This document shows, one piece after another, positions 46,554 through 57,150 of a DNA stretch of 64,000 bases. The first letter of the stretch is position 1. Every line of letters starts with the position of its first letter. The DNA comes from Pseudohongiella sp. O18. GTDB lineage: Bacteria > Pseudomonadota > Gammaproteobacteria > Pseudomonadales > Pseudohongiellaceae. The stretch is from assembly GCF_021729085.1 (NCBI RefSeq), contig NZ_JAJSAR010000002.1, forward strand, positions 1,245,445 through 1,309,444, read 5' to 3'. The notes below the pieces were generated by a model. The model ran no database searches, was not told where the DNA came from, and saw only the letters and a list, made by a program, of their open reading frames with translations. The position numbers and the translations under genes are program-made.

Positions 46554-46604
46554 AATTTTTATAGTATCGTGTGAGTTTTGTTTCTGGATTATCCGGAGCC
46601 TGTT

Positions 46605-49277
46605 TTGCTCAGTCTGTTTTCCATCCCAGCCGATCAGCGGTCACAACTACTGATGGGTCACCATCAATTTGGCCTGATGCTGCTGTCCCTGGTAGTTGCG
46701 ATACTGGCTTCGGGCTTCGCATTGCAACTCGCCAGCATGAGTCGCAACGCACCCAGTCCAGCCAGTGCGCGCATCGCCCTGCTGTCAGGTGCAGTCACAC
46801 TCGCCTTCGGCATCTGGGCAATGCATTTCATCGGTATGCTGTCATTCCAGCTGCCAATATCCGTCAGCTACGATCCTTTCCTGACGCTCGCCTCCGTCTT
46901 ACCCGCTTTGCTTGCCTCAGCCATCGCGCTGTCCATCCTTTCCGCTTCACGACAGACGCTGCCCACCATCCTGCTCGGCGGCCTGCTGGTCGGAGCGGGG
47001 ATTGGCGCAATGCACTACGTCGGCATGTTCGCGATGCGGATGGAGGCAGACCTTCGCTACGATCCACTTCTGTTCGGTGTATCAATCATTGTAGCGGTGG
47101 TGATGGCCATGCTGGCACTGTGGCTGCATTACGGCCTGCGCCGACTCTTGAATCTCGCGACCAGCACATCACTGATCCTGGGCGGCATTGGCATGGGCTT
47201 TGCCATTACCAGTATGCACTACACCGGAATGCTGGCCGCCCGTTTTGTTGGCCATGAGCAACTGACACTGGGCGTGACTGCAGACAATACACCGCTGGCA
47301 CTCGGCATTGGCTTTGCCGTGCTGGCACTGACCGTAGTTGTAGCCGCCACGAATGGTGCCCTTCGTTATCGCGACCTATTAAATCAGGTACAGGACAGCG
47401 AGGCCCGACTGCTGGCTGATATTGATGAGCGCAAGATACTCGAACAGCATCTGCGCAGCGCACGCGATCAGGCCGAGCGAGCTGCAGAGGCGAAAAGCAC
47501 CTTTCTTGCCAACATGAGTCACGAGATCCGCACCCCAATGAATGCCATCATCGGCTTCAGCGAATTGCTGCTGGATACGCCCCTGGACGAGCAGCAGTAT
47601 CGCCATGCCAGAACCGTGCATCGCTCAGCACGCTCGCTATTGCGTCTGCTCAACGACATCCTGGACACCGCTAAACTTGAACGCGGCGCCATTGAGCTGG
47701 AAGCTCAGGCATTTTCTTTAAGACAGCTGTGTGAGGACACGGCCGAAGTCCTTGCTCTACAGGCAGAACATAAGGGCATCACACTGGAGCTGCAGTACCA
47801 GGCGTCCAGCGACGTTTACCTGGGCGACCCGCTGCGTGTCCGACAGGTGCTGCTGAACCTGCTGAGCAATGCAGTCAAATTCACCGAGCAAGGCGGCGTA
47901 GTCCTGCTTGTGAGTAGCACGGAAAAAGAAGTGTCGCTTTGTGTCATGGATACGGGCATAGGCATTGCTTCAGATCGACTGGAGGCAATATTCGATCCGT
48001 TTGCGCAAGCCGATGCGACCATGAGCCGCCGCTTTGGTGGTACCGGCCTCGGCACTACAATCGCTCTGCAACTGGCGCGATTGATGGGCGGCGACATTAT
48101 GGCCGATAGCACCGCAGGCACCGGCTCAACGTTCACAGTCAAACTACCCCTGCCGAAGGCCAGCCTGCCCGAGGCTGAAGCGCGTAGCTTAGATCGCCAA
48201 AGTCAATCATTGCGAGTGCTGGCCGTTGACGACGTTCCTGAGAATCTGGAACTGCTGAAAATTACATTGCGCAATGCCGGGCACGAAGTGGTAACTGCCA
48301 GTAATGGCGCAGAGGCTGTTGAAGCGTATAAACAGATTAAATTCGACCTGGTATTGATGGACGTGCAGATGCCAGTGATGGACGGTCTGCAGGCCACAAA
48401 AGCCATTCGGGAACATGAAAGTGAAACGGGTCAACAGCCCACTGCTGTTATCGCCCTCACCGCCAGCGTCATGGACCGCGATCGCCAGGCAGCCCGCAAC
48501 GCAGGCATGAACGGGTTCGCTTCCAAACCGCTGGATCGTGCGCAACTGAACGATGAAATCGAAAAAGTAATGGGACTCGGAACTGACGCTGGCCTTAACA
48601 ACAATCTGCAAGGTCGATCAGCTGAAAAGTTAAACAACGATGTCATTCAGGCCAGCAACAAACCTGAGACGCGTCACTTCAACAGAGAAGCTGCGTGGCA
48701 GCGCTGGGGCTCCAATGAAGCACTGGGCAAAGCATTGCAATCGTTTGTCAGTAACCACCAGTCAGTGAGTAAAATGCTACGGCACCTGCTCCAGCACCGC
48801 GATCAAAAAAAGCTCTCGATGCTGCTGCACAAGCTCAAAGGAAGCGCGGGCAATCTTGGACTGGAGACCTTGTCCGCTCTGTGCCACAAGCTGGAATTCT
48901 CAGCAGCGCAGTCGGCTCCTGAAGGCGATCAGCAAAAGATCATGGACCAGATTGCAGACGAGCTGGAAAAAGTTGCAACAACGGCGCAGAGCGAAGCCAC
49001 TACATCACCTGAGACCGCTGAGAAACCCAAACCAGCCGCTCTGGTTGAAGACTCCCAGAAATCGGGGCTGGACACTGCTACACATCTTGAGGCAATCAGC
49101 ACGCTTCTCGACGATCTACGTCGTGGCGAGTTGAATGAAAGCAGCGTGCAGCAAGTCACGAAGGGATTAAATGCGTCGCTGCAACGTCAGTTAACTACTG
49201 CATTGGACAACTTTGATTTCGACACAGCCGTTGAAATCCTGAATACCGAAATGAATCAGCACGGTACTGCATCATGA
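46605..49277 (+). CDS. MHYT-domain hybrid histidine kinase with receiver and HPt domains
   Basis: Membrane sensor with a full internal phosphorelay. Seven hydrophobic segments in the first 240 residues carry three MHYT motifs (MHFIGM, MHYVGM, MHYTGM), proposed in the family to bind metal and sense O2, CO or NO. Next are the H-box ([20 protein letters not shown]), the ATPase domain ([32 protein letters not shown]), a receiver ([14 protein letters not shown]) and an HPt domain ([12 protein letters not shown]). I place the start at TTG 46605, since GGAG lies six bases upstream and homologues begin near LFSIP; a TTG at 46578 is also possible. It overlaps the HD-GYP gene by ATGA. Confidence 0.9.
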
Positions 49278-50299
49278 CTATCTCTGCCGATCGACCGACC
49301 CTGCTTCTGGTTGACGATGAACCCGTCAATTTACAGGTCCTTAGACAGGTTCTGCAGCAGGATTATCGATTACTGTTTGCCCGCGACGGTAGAAAGGCGC
49401 TGGAGCTGGCTGAAAGCGAACAGCCTGAGCTTATTCTGCTGGATGTGATGATGCCCGGACTGACCGGTTTCGATACCTGTCGGCAATTGAAGGCCAATTC
49501 GCAGACCAAACGAATTCCCGTCATTTTTGTCACCGCGTTGAACGACGAAGCCGACGAAACACAAGGCTTTGATTGTGGCGCTGTGGACTACATCACAAAA
49601 CCCATCAGCGCGGCTATTGTCCGGGCGCGTGTAAAGACTCATTTATCACTGGTACACACCAACGAACTGCGCGAGACACGCCTGCAGATCGTGCAGCGTC
49701 TGGGCCTGGCAGCCGAGTACAAAGACAACGAAACTGGCCTGCACGTCATCCGCATGAGCCACTTCTCCCGAGTGCTGGCCAGAGCGGCTGGCTTCTCTGA
49801 GGCGGCACAGGAAGAGCTGCTGCACGCTGCCCCCATGCATGACATCGGCAAAATCGGCATACCTGACGCTATTCTGGCCAAACCAGGCAAACTGGACGCA
49901 ACCGAGTGGGACGTCATGAAACAGCACCCCGTTATTGGCGCCCACATTATTGGCGAACAATCCACCGGCCTGCTGCACACAGCGCGTCAGATCGCCCTTT
50001 ATCATCATGAAAAATGGGACGGATCAGGATATCCACACGGCCTGAAAGGCGAAGAAATACCCGTCGAAGCTCGTATCGTTGCGATTGCGGATGTGTTCGA
50101 CGCACTCGTCAGCGCCCGCCCCTACAAACCAGCCTGGCCAGTGGAAAAAGCCGTCGCGCTGATTCGCGAAGAAGCTGGACGGCACTTCGACCCCGAGCTG
50201 GTCGAGCTGTTCCTGCAGCAGCTACCGGAACTCCTGGAGATAAAAGAGCGCTGGGCCGAACCGGAAACACCTGAGCCAGCCGCCGCCTCCTCCATGTAG
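49274..50299 (+). CDS. REC-HD-GYP response regulator, probable c-di-GMP phosphodiesterase
   Basis: Receiver domain (1-125) with the acidic patch in [10 protein letters not shown] and the phospho-Asp in [15 protein letters not shown], followed by an HD-GYP domain (about 135-325). The metal-binding HD is in [16 protein letters not shown], and the GYP motif is in [20 protein letters not shown], both intact, so hydrolysis of c-di-GMP to GMP is likely. The architecture is that of RpfG. Overlap with the kinase by ATGA and the kinase HPt domain make it the direct relay target. A short Glu/Pro-rich tail ends the protein. Confidence 0.9.
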
Positions 50300-50322
50300 G
50301 CCAACGCGCCCGAACTCCATGT

Positions 50323-50328
50323 TATACT
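50323..50328 (+). promoter_or_regulatory. Candidate -10 element for tRNA-Arg
   Basis: TATACT followed by a GC-rich discriminator (TCGCCCGC), 38 bases before the tRNA. The discriminator is typical of stringently controlled stable RNA promoters. The -35 region is poor. Confidence 0.35.
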
Positions 50329-50366
50329 TCGCCCGCTATCGAATATCCGCCGACCAAACCGAACTC

Positions 50367-50443
50367 GCCCCGGTGGCACAGCTGGATAGCGCGGCCCCCT
50401 CCTAAGGGGCAGGTCGCAGGTTCGAATCCTGCCCGGGGCACCA
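50367..50443 (+). tRNA. tRNA-Arg (anticodon CCU)
   Basis: Complete cloverleaf with encoded CCA: acceptor GCCCCGG/CCGGGGC, anticodon stem GCCCC/GGGGC around the loop CTCCTAA (anticodon CCT), T-arm GCAGG-TTCGAAT-CCTGC, discriminator A. It reads AGG codons. Confidence 0.97.
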
Positions 50444-50446
50444 AAT

Positions 50447-50480
50447 AAAAACGGGTCATCCATTTGGATGGCCCGTTTTT
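50447..50480 (+). terminator. Terminator after tRNA-Arg
   Basis: Stem ACGGG-T-CATCC/GGATG-G-CCCGT (50451-50461 with 50466-50476) with A-run before and TTTTT after, four bases after CCA. Confidence 0.92.
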
Positions 50481-50519
50481 GTTTGTGCTCTGGGTAGCAG
50501 ACGAGAACCTGCCGGTTCG

Positions 50520-50737
50520 ACAAAATTGTCTGGAACAATTTTGGACGCAATCGTATGCGCCCGGAGGGTGAGGCCCAGGGATGGGCCGAATCACAAAATT
50601 GTCTGGAACAATTTTGGACGCAATCGTATGCGCCCGGAAGGTGAGGCCCAGGGATGGGCCGAATCACAAAATTGTCAGGGACAATTTTGGACGGCTGCAA
50701 GCCGCCCGAAGGGCGAGCACCAAGGATGGTGCGAGTC
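50520..50737. repeat. Three tandem 73-bp hairpin-rich repeats
   Basis: Units at 50520-50592, 50593-50665 and 50666-50737. Units 1 and 2 differ at a single base; unit 3 (72 bp) is diverged. Each unit begins ACAAAATTGT-N5-ACAATTTTGGACG, giving a hairpin (AAAATTGT with ACAATTTT). A second hairpin changes in sequence but keeps its pairing: GGCCC-AGGGAT-GGGCC in units 1 and 2, GCACC-AAGGAT-GGTGC in unit 3. Unit 3 also has GGCT-GCA-AGCC where units 1 and 2 have GCA-ATCGTA-TGC. Open frames through the repeats on both strands look like by-products. No target-site duplication or transposase is seen. Confidence 0.95.
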
Positions 50738-50773
50738 AATCCTGCCTTGGAAATAAACTCATTTACAGCCTGC

Positions 50774-51148
50774 TTAAGTCCCCTCTCCGCCCGAATAAAC
50801 CAAATCAGTCTTGGCAGCCATAATATAATCATTCCGGCGCAAGCCACCAGCAGTGTGCGTCCACCAGGACACTGTCACCCTGCCCCACTCTATCAGCAGC
50901 GAAGGATGATGGTTTTCTTTCTCTGAGATATCTTTTACGTAGTTAGCGAACTGAATCGCCTCAACAAAATTCCCGAATCGGTAGGTTTTGACGAGCTTTC
51001 GCACGCCTGACTCAGGCTCCCTGCTCCAGCCGGACAGGTCACCGAATAGTTTATCCTCTTCAGTCAGGTCCATCTCTTCCGTCTGGCGTTCACAGGGCTC
51101 GCACTTCTGGCGGCCAAGATCACTATCCTTATCATTACCAGTCATCAT
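50774..51148 (-). CDS. phhB: Pterin-4a-carbinolamine dehydratase
   Basis: Recycles the carbinolamine form of tetrahydrobiopterin made by phenylalanine hydroxylase, and has a reported role in pterin and molybdopterin supply. The active-site block is E78-N-H-H-P, with Trp95/96, Thr-His98 and Asp107 in the usual order. The N-terminal CEPC resembles the CEACR start seen in related gammaproteobacterial proteins. Its 124 residues are family length. GGGG stands eight bases before ATG 51148. No phhA is nearby in the window, so the partner hydroxylase, if any, lies elsewhere. The C-terminal YSGGEGT is an untypical tail. Confidence 0.88.
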   Translation of the reverse strand: MMTGNDKDSDLGRQKCEPCERQTEEMDLTEEDKLFGDLSGWSREPESGVRKLVKTYRFGNFVEAIQFANYVKDISEKENHHPSLLIEWGRVTVSWWTHTAGGLRRNDYIMAAKTDLVYSGGEGT

Positions 51149-51203
51149 GTCTACTACCCCTATTGGGCTTGCGATTCATTTACTGACAATACCTAAGGGC
51201 TAT

Positions 51204-51233
51204 GCTGCCCAACGCCAAGGGGCGCCGGGCAGC
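51204..51233. other. Stable hairpin downstream of the OB-fold gene
   Basis: GCTGCCC/GGGCAGC with an inner GCGCC-rich loop, 12 bases after the stop of the minus-strand gene. No T-tract; termination is possible but not clear. Confidence 0.35.
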
Positions 51234-51244
51234 AGTGTTGAAGC

Positions 51245-51895
51245 TTATGAATTATTGATCGTAGCGATGTTCTCGGCCACGAACAAATGATCTTCGAACA
51301 TTTCCTCAGTCATCGTGCCGCTGATGACAACTTCATCGCCAACATCGAGCTGAAGATAACCCACATTATCCAGAGCGTCATAACCCAGCTCGTCAACTTC
51401 GACGATCATCAAACGACCGTCAGAGTTCAGGACAATTTCCTCCTCCAGAGGCTCAACCGCAGTGATGGTGCCCTGAATGGTCGCGTCACCATCCATGATC
51501 GGGTCTACGACAGTAACAATGGGGTCAAAGAAGGCAAATGACTCCTCATCAACTGGGCTGGCGTAAAAATAGGAGTTTATAGACTCAACGTAAACGCTAC
51601 TTGCCTCGATTGTGGTCATCTCAAAGAAATCGTCATCAATCAGGCCATTGACCACTACTTTGTCGCCTTCCATCAACTTGTACCCATCTGCATCACGATC
51701 ACCATCATCCATTTCTACTGTGACAGAAGCGCGCCCATAGTCCAGCAGAAATGAGTCTGCAGTGACTGACTCGACCGTGCCACTCAGGCTGATCCAGGTG
51801 TCGTCTGGCTGCAGATAAGGGGATTGTGATTGGGCTGCAGCTGCAGCAGAAAACATAAGGGCACTAACAGCACTCATTAGCTTAAAATTTTTCAT
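51245..51895 (-). CDS. Secreted protein with two tandem OB-fold-like domains
   Basis: Probable periplasmic protein. The signal peptide (MKNFKLMSAVSALMFSAAAAA) is followed by two similar domains: about 34-100 (WISLSGTVESVTADSFLLDY, GDKVVVNGLIDDDFFEMTTI) and about 138-210 (DATIQGTITAVEPLEEEIVL, GDEVVISGTMTEEMFEDHLF). Both fit the DUF5666/YgiW-type small OB fold, whose ligands are unknown. It is very acidic, with almost no Lys or Arg after the signal. AGGAGG stands five bases before ATG 51895. I see no partner gene. The upstream gap (51896-52068) holds AT-rich sequence and no clear promoter. Confidence 0.75.
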   Translation of the reverse strand: MKNFKLMSAVSALMFSAAAAAQSQSPYLQPDDTWISLSGTVESVTADSFLLDYGRASVTVEMDDGDRDADGYKLMEGDKVVVNGLIDDDFFEMTTIEASSVYVESINSYFYASPVDEESFAFFDPIVTVVDPIMDGDATIQGTITAVEPLEEEIVLNSDGRLMIVEVDELGYDALDNVGYLQLDVGDEVVISGTMTEEMFEDHLFVAENIATINNS

Positions 51896-52068
51896 GACAA
51901 CCTCCTATCGTCTTTAAACGATTATTGGAACTAATGGTTTGTCAATAAAAATCCTTACAAGAAATATTCTCATTGTCAAATCTTCGAAAAATTCTGTTAC
52001 AACTCGAATGTGCCCAGCTGCCCTCCCGCTTCTTCCTGGAACAAAACGATGAATTACTGGTCAAAAGT

Positions 52069-52668
52069 CTAGCGAAACGTAGGTAAATGCAGATCCCAGC
52101 GCAAAGCTGCTATACGAAGCACAACTACCAGCGCACCCCCGACCAGAAACGCAATCTGCTGTGACACACCAATTGCCTGCAAAACAAGATACAGACTCAC
52201 GCCTGCAATGGCGGCTGATGCATAAATCTCACGTTGCAGGATCAATGGAATACGCGCGGTTACCACGTCTCTCAGAACACCGCCGGCGACTCCCGTCATT
52301 GTGCCCATCAGCACGACAATCAGTGGAGGCACCTCTGCCAGCTCGGCAAGCCTGGCGCCTGAAAGTGCAAACAGCGCGAGACCAAAGGCGTCGGCAACAC
52401 GCAGGCTCATTACCGGTGGTGGGCGGAATCTTACATAGGCAACGGTAAGCAATGCGGAAATAATGATCACCAGCAAATAACTGACATCTGCAATCCAGAA
52501 GATGGGGTGCCGATCAAGCAGGACGTCGCGCAAGGTACCGCCGCCAACTGCGGTCATAGTCGCAACAACGATCACACCCAGGATATCAAGGGCGCGGTCC
52601 CGAGCAGCCAGGACACCGCTGACGGCGAAGACTGCAATGCCGACAAGATCCAGAATGTAAAACAGCAT
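52069..52668 (-). CDS. TRIC/UPF0126-family membrane protein
   Basis: Seven-helix membrane protein of the family related to trimeric intracellular cation channels. The two internal repeats are plain: AARDRALDILGVIVVATMTA with VGGGTLRDVLLDR, and VPPLIVVLMGTMTGVAGGVL with RDVVTARIP. The paired Gly-Gly-x-x-RD kinks are the family hallmark. At 199 residues it is typical. ATG 52668 is preferred over GTG 52671. It starts 4 bases from the end of the REC-EAL gene, so it may be co-transcribed, though a functional link is not evident. Confidence 0.88.
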   Translation of the reverse strand: MLFYILDLVGIAVFAVSGVLAARDRALDILGVIVVATMTAVGGGTLRDVLLDRHPIFWIADVSYLLVIIISALLTVAYVRFRPPPVMSLRVADAFGLALFALSGARLAELAEVPPLIVVLMGTMTGVAGGVLRDVVTARIPLILQREIYASAAIAGVSLYLVLQAIGVSQQIAFLVGGALVVVLRIAALRWDLHLPTFR

Positions 52669-52672
52669 CACG

Positions 52673-54823
52673 CTACTCGCTACGGATCACTCGAGCGGCC
52701 TCTGAAGCGCGCAGGACCAACTCCTGAACGGTATCAGCACCATCCAGAACAGACCACCCCACTGTGTAGTCGATGGTGTGCTCCTGCACGCTGACTCTAT
52801 GATGCATGGCGACACGGGCCAACAGTCGATGATGATCGGGCGGTGAAACATCAACCATCAATACTACAAAATCATCATCTCCGTAGCGGGCCATCAGGTC
52901 TGACTTGCGGAATGTGTCCTTGAGCACGCGACAGAACTCCAACAAAGCTCTGTCACCTGCCACTGGACCATGATCCTCATTGAATTTCTTGAAGTTCACA
53001 AGATCAAATAAAAACAAAGTAGCGTGAGTACCGGCATCCTGAGCCAGCGCCAGCACATCGCGCGCACGCGCATTAAAGCCGCGTCTATTTAACAGGCCTG
53101 TCAAAGTGTCACGGTGCGCCACATAGTCTGAGGTCAGCTCATTCTCAAGCATCTGTGCCAGTCGTTCCAGCTTCCACTTGCCACCCTCATTGAGTGTTCT
53201 CGGTTTACGATCGATCAGACACAGTGTACCCAGCCTGGCGCCACTGCCCGCATGAATTGGGCTGCCCGCGTAGAAGCGTATGTAAGGCTCGCCGGTAACC
53301 AGTGCGGTCCCCTGGAATCGCTCGTCGGTCGTGGCATCGGCAACCACCATCACATCGTCCCCACAGATAGCATGAGAGCAGAAGGAAACGCTGCGAGGAG
53401 TTTCGCGCGCTTCCAGACCGTGTGACGATTTGAACCACTGGCGTTCACTGTCTACCAGGCTGAACAGGGCAATCGGCACATCAAACAGCCGTGCAGCCAA
53501 TGCCGTCACCCTGTCGATTCGTTCATCTTCTTCGCTGTCCAGTATTTTGAGTGACCTCAAAACCTGCAAACGATAGGCTTCATCCTCATTACGCCCCGCA
53601 CGCAGCCAATCCAATACCGCATCACCGGGCATCGGGCGCGCGACATGAAAGCCCTGCGCCAGGTCGCACCCCATATTGCGCAGATACTCAAGTGTTTCAG
53701 CTGTTTCAATACCTTCTGCGGACGCATAGAGCCCCAGGCCGTGACCCAGTTCTATGATTGCCTTGATGACGGTACGCGACTCTTTGGAGCTGGCAGCCGT
53801 CATCACAAAAGACTTGTCGATCTTGATCTCAGAAAACGGCAGGCGAGCCAGCTGGACCATGGAGGAGTAGCCCGTACCAAAGTCATCGATCGAAAGGTGG
53901 AAACCCTTCATCCGCAAACGGGTAAGGATATCCAGAGAACTGATTGGGTCGTCCATGGCGCAGGTTTCGGTCAGTTCCAGAATTATTCGCTCGGGTGCAA
54001 TACCCAGACTCTGGCAATAATCGTCCATTTGTTCAAACAACTTCAGATTACCCAGGGAACTGGCAGAAATATTGAGAGACAGCGTAACGTTCTTCAGGCG
54101 TCGGCGCAGGTAATCATTGTCAGCCGTTTTTTCAAGCGTGCCAGGCAGTGCAGCCAGCCAGCTGAGCGCCTGCTGCATGACGGTCTCAGTCAGCTCATCA
54201 ATAAGATCATATTGCTCAGCCAGCGGTATAAATTCATCTGGACCTACTGTTCCACGATCTGGATGCTGCCAGCGTGCCAGTGCTTCAAATCCCGCCAGTG
54301 TGCTGTTGCGGCAATTAACCTTGGGCTGATAAACCACGTAGATCTGGCCCTGGGAAATTGCATTGCGCAGGTCGTCGACGCTGATCTTATTTTCCTGAGC
54401 CCCCTGATTGCTCCCGGGTTCAGTATTCTCGTGCCAGTCTTGGCGTTTTGGAGCCTTCAGGAAGGATGTCAGACTGGCGGCCGAGAACGGTTTCGGAAGC
54501 ACACCCGCAATCCGCAGACCGTGCTCAGAGGCAGACCTTGCTGCGGCCTCGAGCACTCGCCCACCAACACCACTGGTGATCACAATATCCGCTTCACATC
54601 CCATGCGCGAGAGCTCAACCATGACCTGAACGCCGTCCATATCCGGCATCACAAGATCCAGAGCAATATAATCAGGCGCCCACCGCTGCACTATCTCGAA
54701 AAACTCACTGGGACTGTCCGTGCTTCGAGTTTCGACACCGACTGAGCTGGCGATGGATACAATAGTTTTCGCTGTCAGCGGATCGTCATCGAGAATCAAT
54801 AGTCGGATACTTCGTGTCACCAC
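52673..54823 (-). CDS. REC-EAL-GAF-GGDEF protein, probable c-di-GMP phosphodiesterase with inactive cyclase domain
   Basis: Receiver (1-125; LLILDDDPLT, IALDLVMPDMDG) followed by an EAL domain (about 150-400), a GAF domain (about 425-560) and a GGDEF domain (565-716). The EAL site is complete: FEALARW, LNIS, ILELTE, IDDFGTGYSS, EIKIDKSF, AEGIET and QGFHVARP. The GGDEF motif reads YGDDDF in place of GGDEF/GGEEF, so cyclase activity is unlikely; it may bind GTP and regulate. The domain order, with EAL ahead of GAF-GGDEF, is less common than GGDEF-EAL. Start is GTG 54823, overlapping the upstream kinase stop; GTG 54820 is possible. Confidence 0.88.
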   Translation of the reverse strand: MVTRSIRLLILDDDPLTAKTIVSIASSVGVETRSTDSPSEFFEIVQRWAPDYIALDLVMPDMDGVQVMVELSRMGCEADIVITSGVGGRVLEAAARSASEHGLRIAGVLPKPFSAASLTSFLKAPKRQDWHENTEPGSNQGAQENKISVDDLRNAISQGQIYVVYQPKVNCRNSTLAGFEALARWQHPDRGTVGPDEFIPLAEQYDLIDELTETVMQQALSWLAALPGTLEKTADNDYLRRRLKNVTLSLNISASSLGNLKLFEQMDDYCQSLGIAPERIILELTETCAMDDPISSLDILTRLRMKGFHLSIDDFGTGYSSMVQLARLPFSEIKIDKSFVMTAASSKESRTVIKAIIELGHGLGLYASAEGIETAETLEYLRNMGCDLAQGFHVARPMPGDAVLDWLRAGRNEDEAYRLQVLRSLKILDSEEDERIDRVTALAARLFDVPIALFSLVDSERQWFKSSHGLEARETPRSVSFCSHAICGDDVMVVADATTDERFQGTALVTGEPYIRFYAGSPIHAGSGARLGTLCLIDRKPRTLNEGGKWKLERLAQMLENELTSDYVAHRDTLTGLLNRRGFNARARDVLALAQDAGTHATLFLFDLVNFKKFNEDHGPVAGDRALLEFCRVLKDTFRKSDLMARYGDDDFVVLMVDVSPPDHHRLLARVAMHHRVSVQEHTIDYTVGWSVLDGADTVQELVLRASEAARVIRSE

Positions 54824-57150
54824 TTCGACCCCTCTGCGTTCACTAAGCCATCCAGTTTTTGCGCCAGATCAGCGCGTCGCCAGGGCTTGCTCAATAATAA
54901 TGTTCCGGCAGGCAATTGCCCTGGGGCACCGGACTCCTGATCGAACGCATCTTCTGTGTAGCCAGAGGTAAACAGCACAGGCAGGTCGGGTCGAATTCTG
55001 ATAGCCTCTCGTGCCAGCTCGGGGCCGTTCATCCCATCAGACATCCTGACATCAGTGAACAACAGATCCACCGGCGTACCTGCTGCCAAACGCTGCCTCA
55101 ACACGTCCAGCGCCTGTTCACCATGATTGGCCGACAAAACCTGATAACCAAGTTCGCGAAACTGACGCTCGGCGTACTGCAGGACCAGCTCGTCATCCTC
55201 AACAACCAGCACGACCGGTTTACGTTCCGCTACTTTAGGTGAGTTACCACTTTGTAGCCTTTTCTGCTGTTGGTCAAGACCAATTGCATCAATATCTGCT
55301 ACCGGTAACAGCAAGTGAATCACGGTACCCACCCCGGGGCTGGACTGAATGTCCAGATATCCCCCGGATTGCTTTACAAATCCGTAGACCATACTCAGCC
55401 CCAAACCTGAACCCTCGCCATTTCGCTTGGTTGTAAAAAATGGATCGAGCGCATGGCGCCTTACATCCTCTGTCATACCCTGACCATCATCCTCAACCGC
55501 TATTGCCACCCAATTCTCTGCATCAAGTTCTTTTTTTACCAAAGTCATTGATTCCGCACTGGCAGAGCTGGCAACGATCCTGATACACCCATTGTCAGCT
55601 ATCGCGTCGCGGGCATTCAGACATAAGTTGAGCAGAGCATGTTCAAGCTGGCCGGGATCTATCATTACCGCTGGTATTTTATCCTTAATGACCAGCTCTA
55701 ACTTGACGCGAGCGGGGATCACTCGCCGGACCAGTGGTTGAATACTGTTGATCAGATCCACCACATCCGTGGCCTGAGGCTCCAGGGATTGACGGCGCGC
55801 GAATGCCAGCAATCGCTGCACCAGAGCTTCAGCTTTCTCACTGGCCTGACGAATCATGTCACTCATATCGGCCAGTTCCGGATTATCTTTGAGCGCTTCA
55901 GTAAGCAGCTCGTTATTACCCTGAATCACAGTCAGCAGATTGTTGAAATCATGCGCCATACCGCCGGTCAGTTCACCCACTGTCTGCAGGCGCTGCGCGT
56001 GACCCAACTGTTCGGCCATTTCATTGCGCTCTGTCACATCGCTCATACCGCCAACAAGGCGCAATGCCTGACCACTCTGATCCCGCACAACGCGCATGTG
56101 CTCCTCAATCTCCGCAATGCTGCCGTCCTGACGTACGAACCGGTAGTTCATCATCAATTCTTCCGTATCACCGCGAACGGCACCCCACAGCGTGTCGAGT
56201 ACTCTGTCACGGTCTTCAGGATGCACGTGCGAGGTCCACACAGTGGGATCGCTCATCATGTCTTCACGTTCATAACCGAACAGCGTATTGACACCCTGAT
56301 TCCACCAGATGACGTTATTGACAATATCCCAGTCGGAGATGGCATCAACAGTTGTACTGGCAACATGTTCGAAACGTTCGGCAAGCCGGTAGAGATCATC
56401 TATATCAATGGCCGAACCACACCACTTGATGATCAGTCCGTCCGCATCTTTCACTGGCGTACCCTGCACCAATAACCAGCGCCACTTACCGTCGTGTCGC
56501 TGGACGCGAACCTCCAGTTCATATTCCTTGCCCTCTGCAATGACTTCCGGCCACTTGGCCATGACAAGGGGTTTATCGTCGGGATGAACGCTGCCAAGCC
56601 AGCCAGCGTGGTTGATCAGATCTTCTCGCTGGCGACCGGTGTAGCGTGCAAAGGCCCGATTCACAAAATCGATGCCACCTTCTGCGGTAGCAGTCCATAT
56701 GGTCTGCGGAATGGCATCGGCAAACAGTTGAAACTGTGAGCTGTACTGAAATGGTGAGAGTGGGTTGTCCGGAGATGGCGTCAACTTTTTCAGGTTGCGA
56801 TATTCCCTGCGCCACTGATGTTTTTCCATACGACTGCGCCGCAGACGAATTATGACGTATGATGTCAGCGCTGTCAGGGCTACTAGCTCGGTGATGGACA
56901 TCAGACGATTGGTCAGCCAGTAGCGCATCGGCAGGCCTTCTGGCGACAACCAGATACCCAGCGCAGTCAGTGCGATCGACAGACCGGCCAGCGTCCACAT
57001 GAATCTGAGGCTACCAGTAAAAGCAGCCAGTAGCACGCCAATCAGATACAGATCACCGTGCGCAAATCCCAACGGTGTCTGGGAGTCCAGCCCAAATACC
57101 GCAATCAGACTTAGCACGCTGGCAATCTGCAACGGCCGTATTTTGATCAA
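54817..57150 (-). CDS. PAS-PAS hybrid sensor histidine kinase with receiver
   Basis: Membrane-attached kinase with three hydrophobic segments in the first 110 residues (VLSLIAVFGLDSQTPLGFAH, LYLIGVLLAAFTGSLRFM, LVALTALTSYVIIRL). Two PAS domains follow (about 140-265, IDFVNRAFARYTGRQREDL; about 270-395, VNTLFGYEREDMMSDPTV). The kinase core has the H-box GELTGGMAHDFNNLLTVIQG, an N-box LLNLCLNARDAI, and G-boxes DDGQGM and GEGSGLGLSM. A receiver ends the protein (LLFTDVRMSDGMNG). The start is TTG 57150 with AGGTG nearby; no ATG lies within the first 50 codons. Overlap with the REC-EAL gene suggests it acts as its cognate kinase. Confidence 0.85.
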   Translation of the reverse strand: MIKIRPLQIASVLSLIAVFGLDSQTPLGFAHGDLYLIGVLLAAFTGSLRFMWTLAGLSIALTALGIWLSPEGLPMRYWLTNRLMSITELVALTALTSYVIIRLRRSRMEKHQWRREYRNLKKLTPSPDNPLSPFQYSSQFQLFADAIPQTIWTATAEGGIDFVNRAFARYTGRQREDLINHAGWLGSVHPDDKPLVMAKWPEVIAEGKEYELEVRVQRHDGKWRWLLVQGTPVKDADGLIIKWCGSAIDIDDLYRLAERFEHVASTTVDAISDWDIVNNVIWWNQGVNTLFGYEREDMMSDPTVWTSHVHPEDRDRVLDTLWGAVRGDTEELMMNYRFVRQDGSIAEIEEHMRVVRDQSGQALRLVGGMSDVTERNEMAEQLGHAQRLQTVGELTGGMAHDFNNLLTVIQGNNELLTEALKDNPELADMSDMIRQASEKAEALVQRLLAFARRQSLEPQATDVVDLINSIQPLVRRVIPARVKLELVIKDKIPAVMIDPGQLEHALLNLCLNARDAIADNGCIRIVASSASAESMTLVKKELDAENWVAIAVEDDGQGMTEDVRRHALDPFFTTKRNGEGSGLGLSMVYGFVKQSGGYLDIQSSPGVGTVIHLLLPVADIDAIGLDQQQKRLQSGNSPKVAERKPVVLVVEDDELVLQYAERQFRELGYQVLSANHGEQALDVLRQRLAAGTPVDLLFTDVRMSDGMNGPELAREAIRIRPDLPVLFTSGYTEDAFDQESGAPGQLPAGTLLLSKPWRRADLAQKLDGLVNAEGSKW

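Follow-up and report, generated by a model that had tools for sequence, protein, structure and literature searches.

The tandem repeat that follows the tRNA-Arg(CCT) gene of Pseudohongiella sp. O18 raises the question of what kind of element it is and why it lies directly behind a stable RNA gene. A sequence-only reading had offered three answers, namely a REP-like mobile repeat, a small RNA and a transcription-end module for the PCD gene on the other strand. The locus was analysed within a window of 64,000 nucleotides, the whole stretch of DNA considered here, and by comparison with copies in the same genome, in the genus and family and across the class.

Organization of the array

The tRNA-Arg(CCT) gene lies at 50367..50443 on the + strand (ARAGORN, Rfam RF00005) and the first repeat unit starts 76 bases 3' of it. 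As had been read from the sequence, three head-to-tail units follow at 50520-50737; their lengths are 73, 73 and 72 bp. Tandem Repeats Finder reported a period of 73 at 50520-50693 with a score of 327, the highest among the 7 rows obtained for the 64-kb window. Units 1 (u1, 50520..50592) and 2 (u2, 50593..50665) proved almost identical, differing at 1 of 73 sites, and unit 3 (u3, 50666..50737) has diverged to 73% identity with u2; all three are on the + strand. Each unit, termed core E, runs ACAAA...GA(A/G)TC and folds into four hairpins. H1 and H2 are followed by a small H3, and the linker GGYGAG separates H3 from H4, whose hexaloop is ANGGAT. In u1, H1 (CAAAATTGT-CTGGA-ACAATTTTG, 50521..50543, + strand), whose loop holds GGA, and H4 (GGCCC-AGGGAT-GGGCC, an ANGGAN hexaloop, 50572..50587, + strand) were identified from the fold and from covariation in relatives, and H4 of u2 (50645..50660) and of u3 (GCACC-AAGGAT-GGTGC, 50717..50732), on the same strand, from the fold. 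The compensatory change already noticed in the H4 stem, GGCCC/GGGCC in u1 and u2 versus GCACC/GGTGC in u3, is real, with the ANGGAT loop and its GGAT unchanged, and H2 also differs on both sides between units (CGCA/TGCG versus CGGCT/AGCCG).

The module exceeds the array on both sides. A small hairpin, H0 (GAACC-TGCC-GGTTC, 50505..50518, + strand; from sequence and fold), directly precedes u1, and GAGAAC(C/T) precedes the unit in 11 of 23 aligned modules. Behind u3 lies A2 (AATCCTGCC, 50738..50746, + strand; from sequence), where the tRNA-Arg 3' end recurs as an incomplete second copy; in the window, 13 of 19 bases agree with the tRNA 3' end and CCA is missing. Upstream of H0, the tRNA 3' end, a terminator-like hairpin and a stretch termed A' form one long hairpin at 50429..50500 on the + strand (RNAfold, complementarity); A' is complementary to the tRNA 3' end and was paired with it by RNAfold of both 50420-50752 and 50367-50752, the pairing in the window including G.U pairs.

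The hairpin with a T-run between tRNA and array can be taken by eye for the terminator described in the sequence-only reading, but a simple scan did not place it in its + strand terminator list and listed the same hairpin on the - strand. The same kind of scan found no promoter-like site at 50300-51200. The PCD gene on the other strand is a genuine pterin-4a-carbinolamine dehydratase. That the array ends its transcription was rejected: the only listed PCD-strand terminator-like site is at 50470-50457, beyond the array, and the other copies in the genome lie behind stable RNA genes and not near a PCD-like gene. Signal-transduction genes surround the array at 46578-57150, with a response regulator with an HD domain at 49274-50299 (Pfam) and, by eye only, kinase, EAL and GGDEF-like frames nearby.

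Covariation and the folded strand

Fold z-scores on the + strand were -2.4, -1.9 and -3.9 for u1, u2 and u3, and on the - strand -4.8 for u1 and -4.4 for u3, so that single-unit folding energies do not tell the strand. Covariation was scored on H1 and H4, with paired changes in H2 and H3 read by eye. Among 70 distinct sequences from the family and its neighbours, 97.1% of cells in H1/H4 were paired, 16 of 17 pairs were changed on both sides and the covariation score was 0.529, against 0.146 for shuffled alignments and 0.05-0.07 for slid partners. Forty distinct sequences from the class gave 97.2% of cells paired, again 16 of 17 pairs changed on both sides, and a score of 0.606 against 0.174 and 0.02-0.10, respectively. 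None of 500 shuffles reached the observed score. The alignments were fitted to the model structure and are biased towards it, and the slid controls were nonetheless far off. Selection on a folded form, previously proposed from the window, is thus strongly supported, covariation in both sets of relatives lying far beyond both controls.

In the H1 and H4 stems G.U cells outnumbered A.C cells 42 to 17, a table sum that omits two pairs at the foot of H4 and is drawn from related sequences, the counts of which are not independent. Of the pairs at the H4 foot, one is G.U in 49 of 70 sequences and A.C in none (alignment A3), whilst the other alternates between C-G (41) and U-A (22). The G.U excess and the kept G.U pair therefore favour the + strand as the folded one, and we infer that this strand acts as RNA.

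Relationship to RtT and AaHKsRNA22

RtT is an E. coli RNA, reportedly described by Bosl and Kersten in 1991 (cited in PMC4986893), whose function is said to have been unclear since. A covariance model, R2, was built from 23 stable-RNA-linked modules, including genus relatives and two sister copies from the same genome and excluding window and E. coli records. Its match to the module in the window extended from end to end, with 97.5 bits, and four places at E. coli K-12 tyrT/tyrV scored 31.5-35.8 bits, namely RttR as annotated, a pair of repeats behind it that are 178 bp apart, and the tyrT-tyrV spacer. Outside E copies, tRNA-Tyr genes reached at most 10.9 bits and unrelated control loci at most 11.2 bits; part of the R2 score derives from tRNA-like flanks, and the tRNA-Tyr control bounds that part. 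Another model, R1, built from 22 sequences of the GGA type, matched none of the four places at E up to 0.01. When 56 class genomes were searched, the RtT model RF00391 matched 14, 4 of them above cut-off, and R2 matched 26; of the 27 RtT places listed, 25 overlapped a listed R2 place and 8 a listed R1 place. RtT scored 43.9 bits in the sister copy at C2:755428-755569 and 33 bits in L099, the cut-off being 45, and RF00391 had no match at E up to 5 in the window at 50440-50770. Of seven loci searched, three (L196, L197 and L198) contained AaHKsRNA22 (Aggregatibacter sRNA 22, RF02902) above cut-off; two of these are in the same genome as the window, and the window units themselves had no match.

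With RtT the window shares a position directly behind a tRNA gene on the same strand, tandem repeats, a left stretch complementary to the tRNA 3' end, a GAGAACC...GGTTCG hairpin, H2, H3 (CCCGAAGGG), GAG and H4, and then a second tRNA 3' end copy, and R2 found the full RtT layout, H0-H1-H2-H3-GAG-H4 with the complementary left stretch and the second tRNA 3' end, in the window. RtT differs in its short H1 and H4 without GGA loops and in a second tRNA end with CCA, whereas the window has three E units in one module, GGA loops and a degenerate second tRNA end. AaHKsRNA22 shares the four-hairpin layout and the place behind tRNA 3' ends, although the copies in this genome that match it differ from the window in having H1 and H4 without GGA. 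Judged by these models, core E, RtT and AaHKsRNA22 belong to a single family that represents the hairpin core of RtT-type RNAs, and the assignment of the window array to that family is well supported. Among the papers listed by the literature searches, none joined RtT, AaHKsRNA22, the ERIC insert described below and tRNA-tail repeats in its title or abstract opening.

Among the homologues, RttR and Arrc20/21 have been annotated or detected as RNAs, the E. coli annotation of RttR stopping at the second CCA. PMC4986893 reports Northern signals in Actinobacillus pleuropneumoniae for RtT homologues that lie upstream of the tRNA-Asn and tRNA-Lys genes. The proposal of a small RNA gains from homology to known RNAs and loses from the lack of a promoter-like site in the scanned region. 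A sub-threshold Rfam sX4 match (55 bits, cut-off 70) was also seen at L048:2547-2705, covering a tRNA-Ser gene together with its flank, and part of sX4 may resemble tRNA-Ser.

Distribution and position behind stable RNA genes

An exact pattern of the H3-H4 region matched 115 DNA stretches in a named genome collection. The 80 loci listed included Pseudohongiella, Dyella, Rhodanobacter, Serratia, Yersinia, Escherichia and others, and nearly all of these copies were full units with different stem letters. R1 matched 43 of 79 genomes of the family and 44 of 114 of the class, the class sample having been drawn evenly with each listed genome from a different family. Because both the pattern and R1 were derived from sequences of the GGA type, the share of GGA loops among the copies found is biased. 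The range suggested by the sequence-only reading, some marine gammaproteobacteria, is too narrow, given Dyella, Serratia, Yersinia and Escherichia. A copy close to the one queried was held by 633 of 5426 E. coli genomes, with a median of one and a maximum of three. In G043, of the same family (genus g8), R1 had 22 matches, and ten of those listed cover the H4 part only, possibly a shortened, REP-like form of the element. A phage origin was rejected, the array having no match in the phage collection. A plasmid origin was rejected likewise: with a query of tRNA and array, the 20 listed of 63 plasmid records matched the tRNA part only, and the flank of one sister copy had no plasmid match.

R1 matched eight places in the genome of the window, so that the unit is not unique to this site, and all eight are behind stable-RNA 3' ends (tRNA, tmRNA, 5S or half-tRNA remnants). 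Three of them are the window array and one lies behind tmRNA (L195). Two at the end of contig C3 are behind a 5S rRNA end and antisense to it, this 5S being truncated by the contig end and read by eye; in the relatives G009, G012 and G013 a copy is close to an Rfam-called 5S. The remaining two each follow the 3' half of a tRNA, and the 1.6 kb searched around them contained no whole tRNA. At L196 (C2:448 kb) and L197 (C2:74 kb) of this genome a tRNA 3' half lacking its 5' half precedes a terminator-like hairpin, H0 and then an AaHKsRNA22 copy, and these tRNA halves are probably far ends of integrated islands or attachment scars. An RtT match just under cut-off was present behind tRNA-Ser(GGA), where a second such module was seen by eye.

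In the class survey, best hits were evaluated for 29 of the 43 other matching genomes, those with loci given. Seventeen followed a tRNA or tmRNA gene (Ser, Arg, Gln, Glu, Phe, tmRNA), in one case at a distance of 425 bases, two were just before a tRNA and ten were near no tRNA or tmRNA found by ARAGORN. Among 40 further listed hits, taken by hand across genomes and not at random, 15 had a whole tRNA or tmRNA within 500 bp and 25 had none; at least two more (L306 and L328) are flanked by tRNA 3'-end pieces, and several of those without a tRNA lie, by eye, in other palindromic repeats. One of the 40, L342, is truncated by a contig end with its element position off, and was excluded from flank and junction analyses. 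The excess near tRNA genes looks large, tRNA genes being a small fraction of a genome. Six surveyed elements are antisense to tRNA genes, as the two beside 5S are to theirs, and this orientation is ill suited to a role needing the tRNA transcript.

Among genus relatives, the unit also occurs behind tRNA-Arg(CCT) in G002, G006 (twice), G009, G012 and G014; four of these five carry a variant without GGA loops, and RF02902 scored 38.2 bits on the G006 variant, the cut-off being 39.8. No unit was seen in the approximately 360 bases behind this gene in G003, G005, G007, G008, G010, G011 or G013, and G004 gave no match. In G010 (L247) an apparent integrase gene start, phage-type by eye, lies behind tRNA-Arg(CCT), so that islands may integrate at this tRNA gene in the genus.

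Junctions, insertion and mobility

When the unit was cut out as ACAAA...GAGTC its flanks joined into known sequences: the T-arm of tRNA-Arg (GGTTCG/AATCC, rebuilt in the window from 50514-50519 and A2), tRNA-Pro (GATTC/AAATCC), tmRNA (GGGTTC/AAATCCCC) and a dispersed palindrome of genus g4 (GATTCTGCG/ACTCCGC). This palindrome, AGATTCTGCGACTCCGCTTCGC...GCGCAGAATGAC, a landing site for the repeat at L217 and L289, occurs as short matches in many places in G065, G080, G084, G087 and G091. At 68 class loci, G precedes the unit in 60 and the unit begins AC in 62, and the left flank ends T-loop-like in 29. Exact insertion was proved in one filled/empty pair, an orthologous locus beside adhC (named by eye) where exactly the 77 bp present in G091 are missing from G080; AC is possibly duplicated there, and the junction repeats at most these two letters. 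In G001 (L207:602-886) the unit lies within the T-loop of a tRNA-Arg(CCT) copy with its 5' part kept and its 3' end diverged, and an intact tRNA-Arg(CCT) stands behind the interrupted copy; apparently the gene was duplicated and the copy then broken by insertion. Since the junctions are exact, the hosts varied and one empty site is available, the view that core E is, or was, mobile is supported by these comparisons.

Longer ERICs carrying an insert have already been described. In E. coli, Serratia, Yersinia and others, core E sits inside an ERIC sequence recognized from its letters, and its flanks agree by eye with the ERIC/RU-1 letters given in PMC2759123; core E also occurs inside other palindromic repeats. 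At E. coli bsmA-yjfN most strains are without approximately 270 bases where one strain holds ERIC and E, but ERIC and E are absent together, judged by length, and the locus, which shows at most movement of ERIC, was rejected as proof that E moves. At yehK-yehL, E. coli strains differ in length. The enterobacterial mobile repeats ERIC/RU-1 and YPAL/RU-2 are, like core E, small dispersed hairpin repeats, and YPAL hairpins carry ANGGAT loops in the sequence printed in PMC2759123; core E has a much wider host range. Terminal inverted repeats and a TA duplication appear among the features of ERIC-type MITEs in a table of PMC2229807. By eye, the ends of core E, ACAAA.../...GAGTC, have neither, whilst exact insertion with an empty counterpart, a further feature of such elements, is seen in G091 and G080.

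REP sequences with their RAYT also are short non-coding intergenic palindromes, defined in the abstract of PMC3733652 by a GTAG tag at the hairpin foot. Core E differs in having four hairpins, no GTAG tag in the unit sequence (by eye) and no place beside a Y1 transposase gene. The genome has one clear gene of this kind (PF01797, C1:798186-798512, L301), and the 3.3 kb around it contained no R1 match at E up to 10, on which grounds a RAYT was rejected as the mover. Of the earlier suggestion of a REP-like repeat, dispersal and precise insertion hold, and no association with a RAYT was found. CRISPR and integron attC were set aside as unlike in anatomy.

The same evidence could describe a purely selfish, MITE-like DNA, in which the paired changes would be kept for a transposase recognizing a folded single strand, the tails of stable RNA genes would be no more than a target and no RNA function would exist. 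Insertion without a long target duplication, the fixed junction, copies inside ERIC and other palindromes and an orientation that seems to be set by the target (the tRNA-Phe copies are antisense, with AATC on that strand, by eye) are all what such an element would leave. It sits poorly with the G.U excess and the kept G.U pair, which indicate RNA on one strand, with homologues that are RNAs, with complementarity of A' to the tRNA 3' end far beyond that of swapped pairs (see below) and with a single orthologous tRNA-Arg site that holds different subfamilies in an unchanged layout. We consider this explanation possible but on the unlikely side, and rank an RNA function tied to stable-RNA tails above it.

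GGA loops and CsrA

The H4 loops of u1, u2 and u3 read AGGGAU, AGGGAU and AAGGAU, all three ANGGAN hexaloops, and the window subfamily carries GGA in the loops of both H1 and H4. PMC7652899 gives ANGGAN as the RsmE loop and RUACARGGAUGU as the CsrA consensus; an H4 loop ANGGAU closed by C-G fits a CsrA/RsmE site, and the genome has csrA. Of 228 unique elements, the 225 with at least 60 bases entered a census. Both loops carried GGA in 183 of them; 20 had it in the H4 loop alone, many of these having lost H1, 8 had it in the H1 loop alone and 14 had it in neither loop. GGA in one loop is associated with GGA in the other (Fisher p 3e-8), partly by ancestry, related copies not being independent, and the models behind the census were trained on GGA types. 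The GGA loops of the window subfamily may bind a CsrA dimer, and an element of this type might act as a CsrA (RsmA) decoy, with H1 and H4 of one E binding one dimer and read-through making a growth-rate-coupled sponge.

GGA loops are absent from E. coli RtT and from copies of the AaHKsRNA22 type, for which reason CsrA would explain at most one subfamily and not a role common to the family. The H1 and H4 stems are longer than those of a usual CsrA ligand, and very stable stems may be a disadvantage for such ligands according to the review PMC7652899; antisense copies, moreover, would not be transcribed together with the tRNA. The sponges CsrB, RsmY and RsmZ share repeated ANGGAN hairpin loops with the array, which differs from them in its stable four-hairpin units, in GGA that is not found in all subfamilies and in the lack of a family match. 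Rfam CsrC reached only 11.7 bits on the window, against 61, which is near chance, and CsrB/RsmZ or a riboswitch was rejected, no Rfam match in the array being above cut-off. A decoy role is accordingly held as tentative and rather unlikely, although CsrA binding would be the most testable special role of the window's subfamily.

Copies of the tRNA 3' end and their pairing

The relationship of the flanks to the RNA was measured on 70 elements lying 25-260 bases downstream of a whole stable RNA gene of the same strand; several of these came from one locus and three from the window. The last 19 RNA bases paired with the 75 bases before the unit at -22.2 kcal/mol, against -15.7 with RNA kinds swapped (0/200). 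Directly behind the unit, the sequence agrees with the RNA 3' end at 14.3 of 19 positions, against 10.2 when swapped (0/200), and in 16 of the 70 elements this second tRNA 3' end is identical, 19/19, through CCA. A' also pairs with the second copy behind E, at -17.0 versus -14.5 when swapped (0/200). At the 68 class loci the unit flanks pair at -13.86 versus -11.80 shuffled (0/200); at the 39 loci without a T-loop-like left flank pairing was at chance (-11.36 versus -10.98, sd 0.42), and A':A2 pairing was rejected as a general rule. A 163-base unit comprising tRNA 3' end, terminator-like hairpin, H0 and core is repeated twice in G009, a layout which is that of the E. coli tyrT repeats. In Serratia bockelmannii (L121:1-652), three tandem 161-base repeats lie behind tRNA-Phe, antisense, with the module layout and no GGA loops.

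Control of tRNA maturation would draw on this pairing, A' binding either the tRNA end, in an extended terminator hairpin, or the second copy, so that the module would act as a switch or as a minihelix mimic for enzymes of tRNA processing, and the end of the annotated RttR at the second CCA would suit it as well as the two pairing energies do. Such pairing could, however, be a scar of repeat formation and not selected; the second copy is degenerate in the window and flank pairing is at chance in the 39 loci above, and we regard this role as very unlikely. An ordinary local tandem duplication of a terminator-like hairpin without any family would suit the near identity of u1 and u2 and has practically no chance, being refuted by matches in 44 of 114 class genomes and by massive covariation.

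A proposed mobile RtT-type core in stable-RNA tails

Starting from the observed fold and covariation, the ties to the family, the location behind stable RNAs and one exact insertion, we propose that the array is probably three copies of a mobile RtT-type core, inserted in stable-RNA tails and carried on read-through transcripts. Core E would be a mobile, non-coding element that inserts at a fixed point before A, often G^AATCC, its targets being sequences able to form hairpins and above all T-arm copies behind tRNA and tmRNA genes. Once inserted, E would become the core of a module made of a tRNA-complementary stretch, H0, E and a second tRNA 3' end, which read-through of the stable RNA gene would carry as a many-branched RNA; the annotated RttR is an E. 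coli instance of such an RNA. In the window, E would have multiplied by tandem duplication, recently in the case of u1 and u2, the second tRNA end would have decayed, and the copy is presumed to be transcribed. Several observations count against the proposal: the hairpin with a T-run between tRNA and array, the lack of a listed promoter-like site, the second end without CCA, window units that match neither RtT nor AaHKsRNA22 directly with the RtT match of the genome under cut-off, and the lack of a whole tRNA or tmRNA near 10 of the 29 best hits and 25 of the 40 further ones.

These data tie RtT to an Aggregatibacter sRNA family, to ERIC inserts and to unnamed repeats in 44 of 114 class genomes, and indicate that an RtT-type hairpin core is able to move as a unit. 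They also provide a large comparative data set for the question of what the tails of tRNA genes do. Natural subfamilies differ in GGA loops on one scaffold at the same orthologous tRNA site, which makes a clear test possible. The fullest version of the proposal, a mobile RNA element present in a large part of the gammaproteobacterial families, which enters the 3' tails of tRNA, tmRNA and rRNA genes at T-arm-like hairpins and turns read-through transcripts into structured tRNA-end mimics, with a window subfamily of CsrA decoys reporting stable-RNA synthesis, is decidedly unlikely as a whole; if true, the elements of the window subfamily would be CsrA decoys that signal how strongly the cell makes stable RNA.
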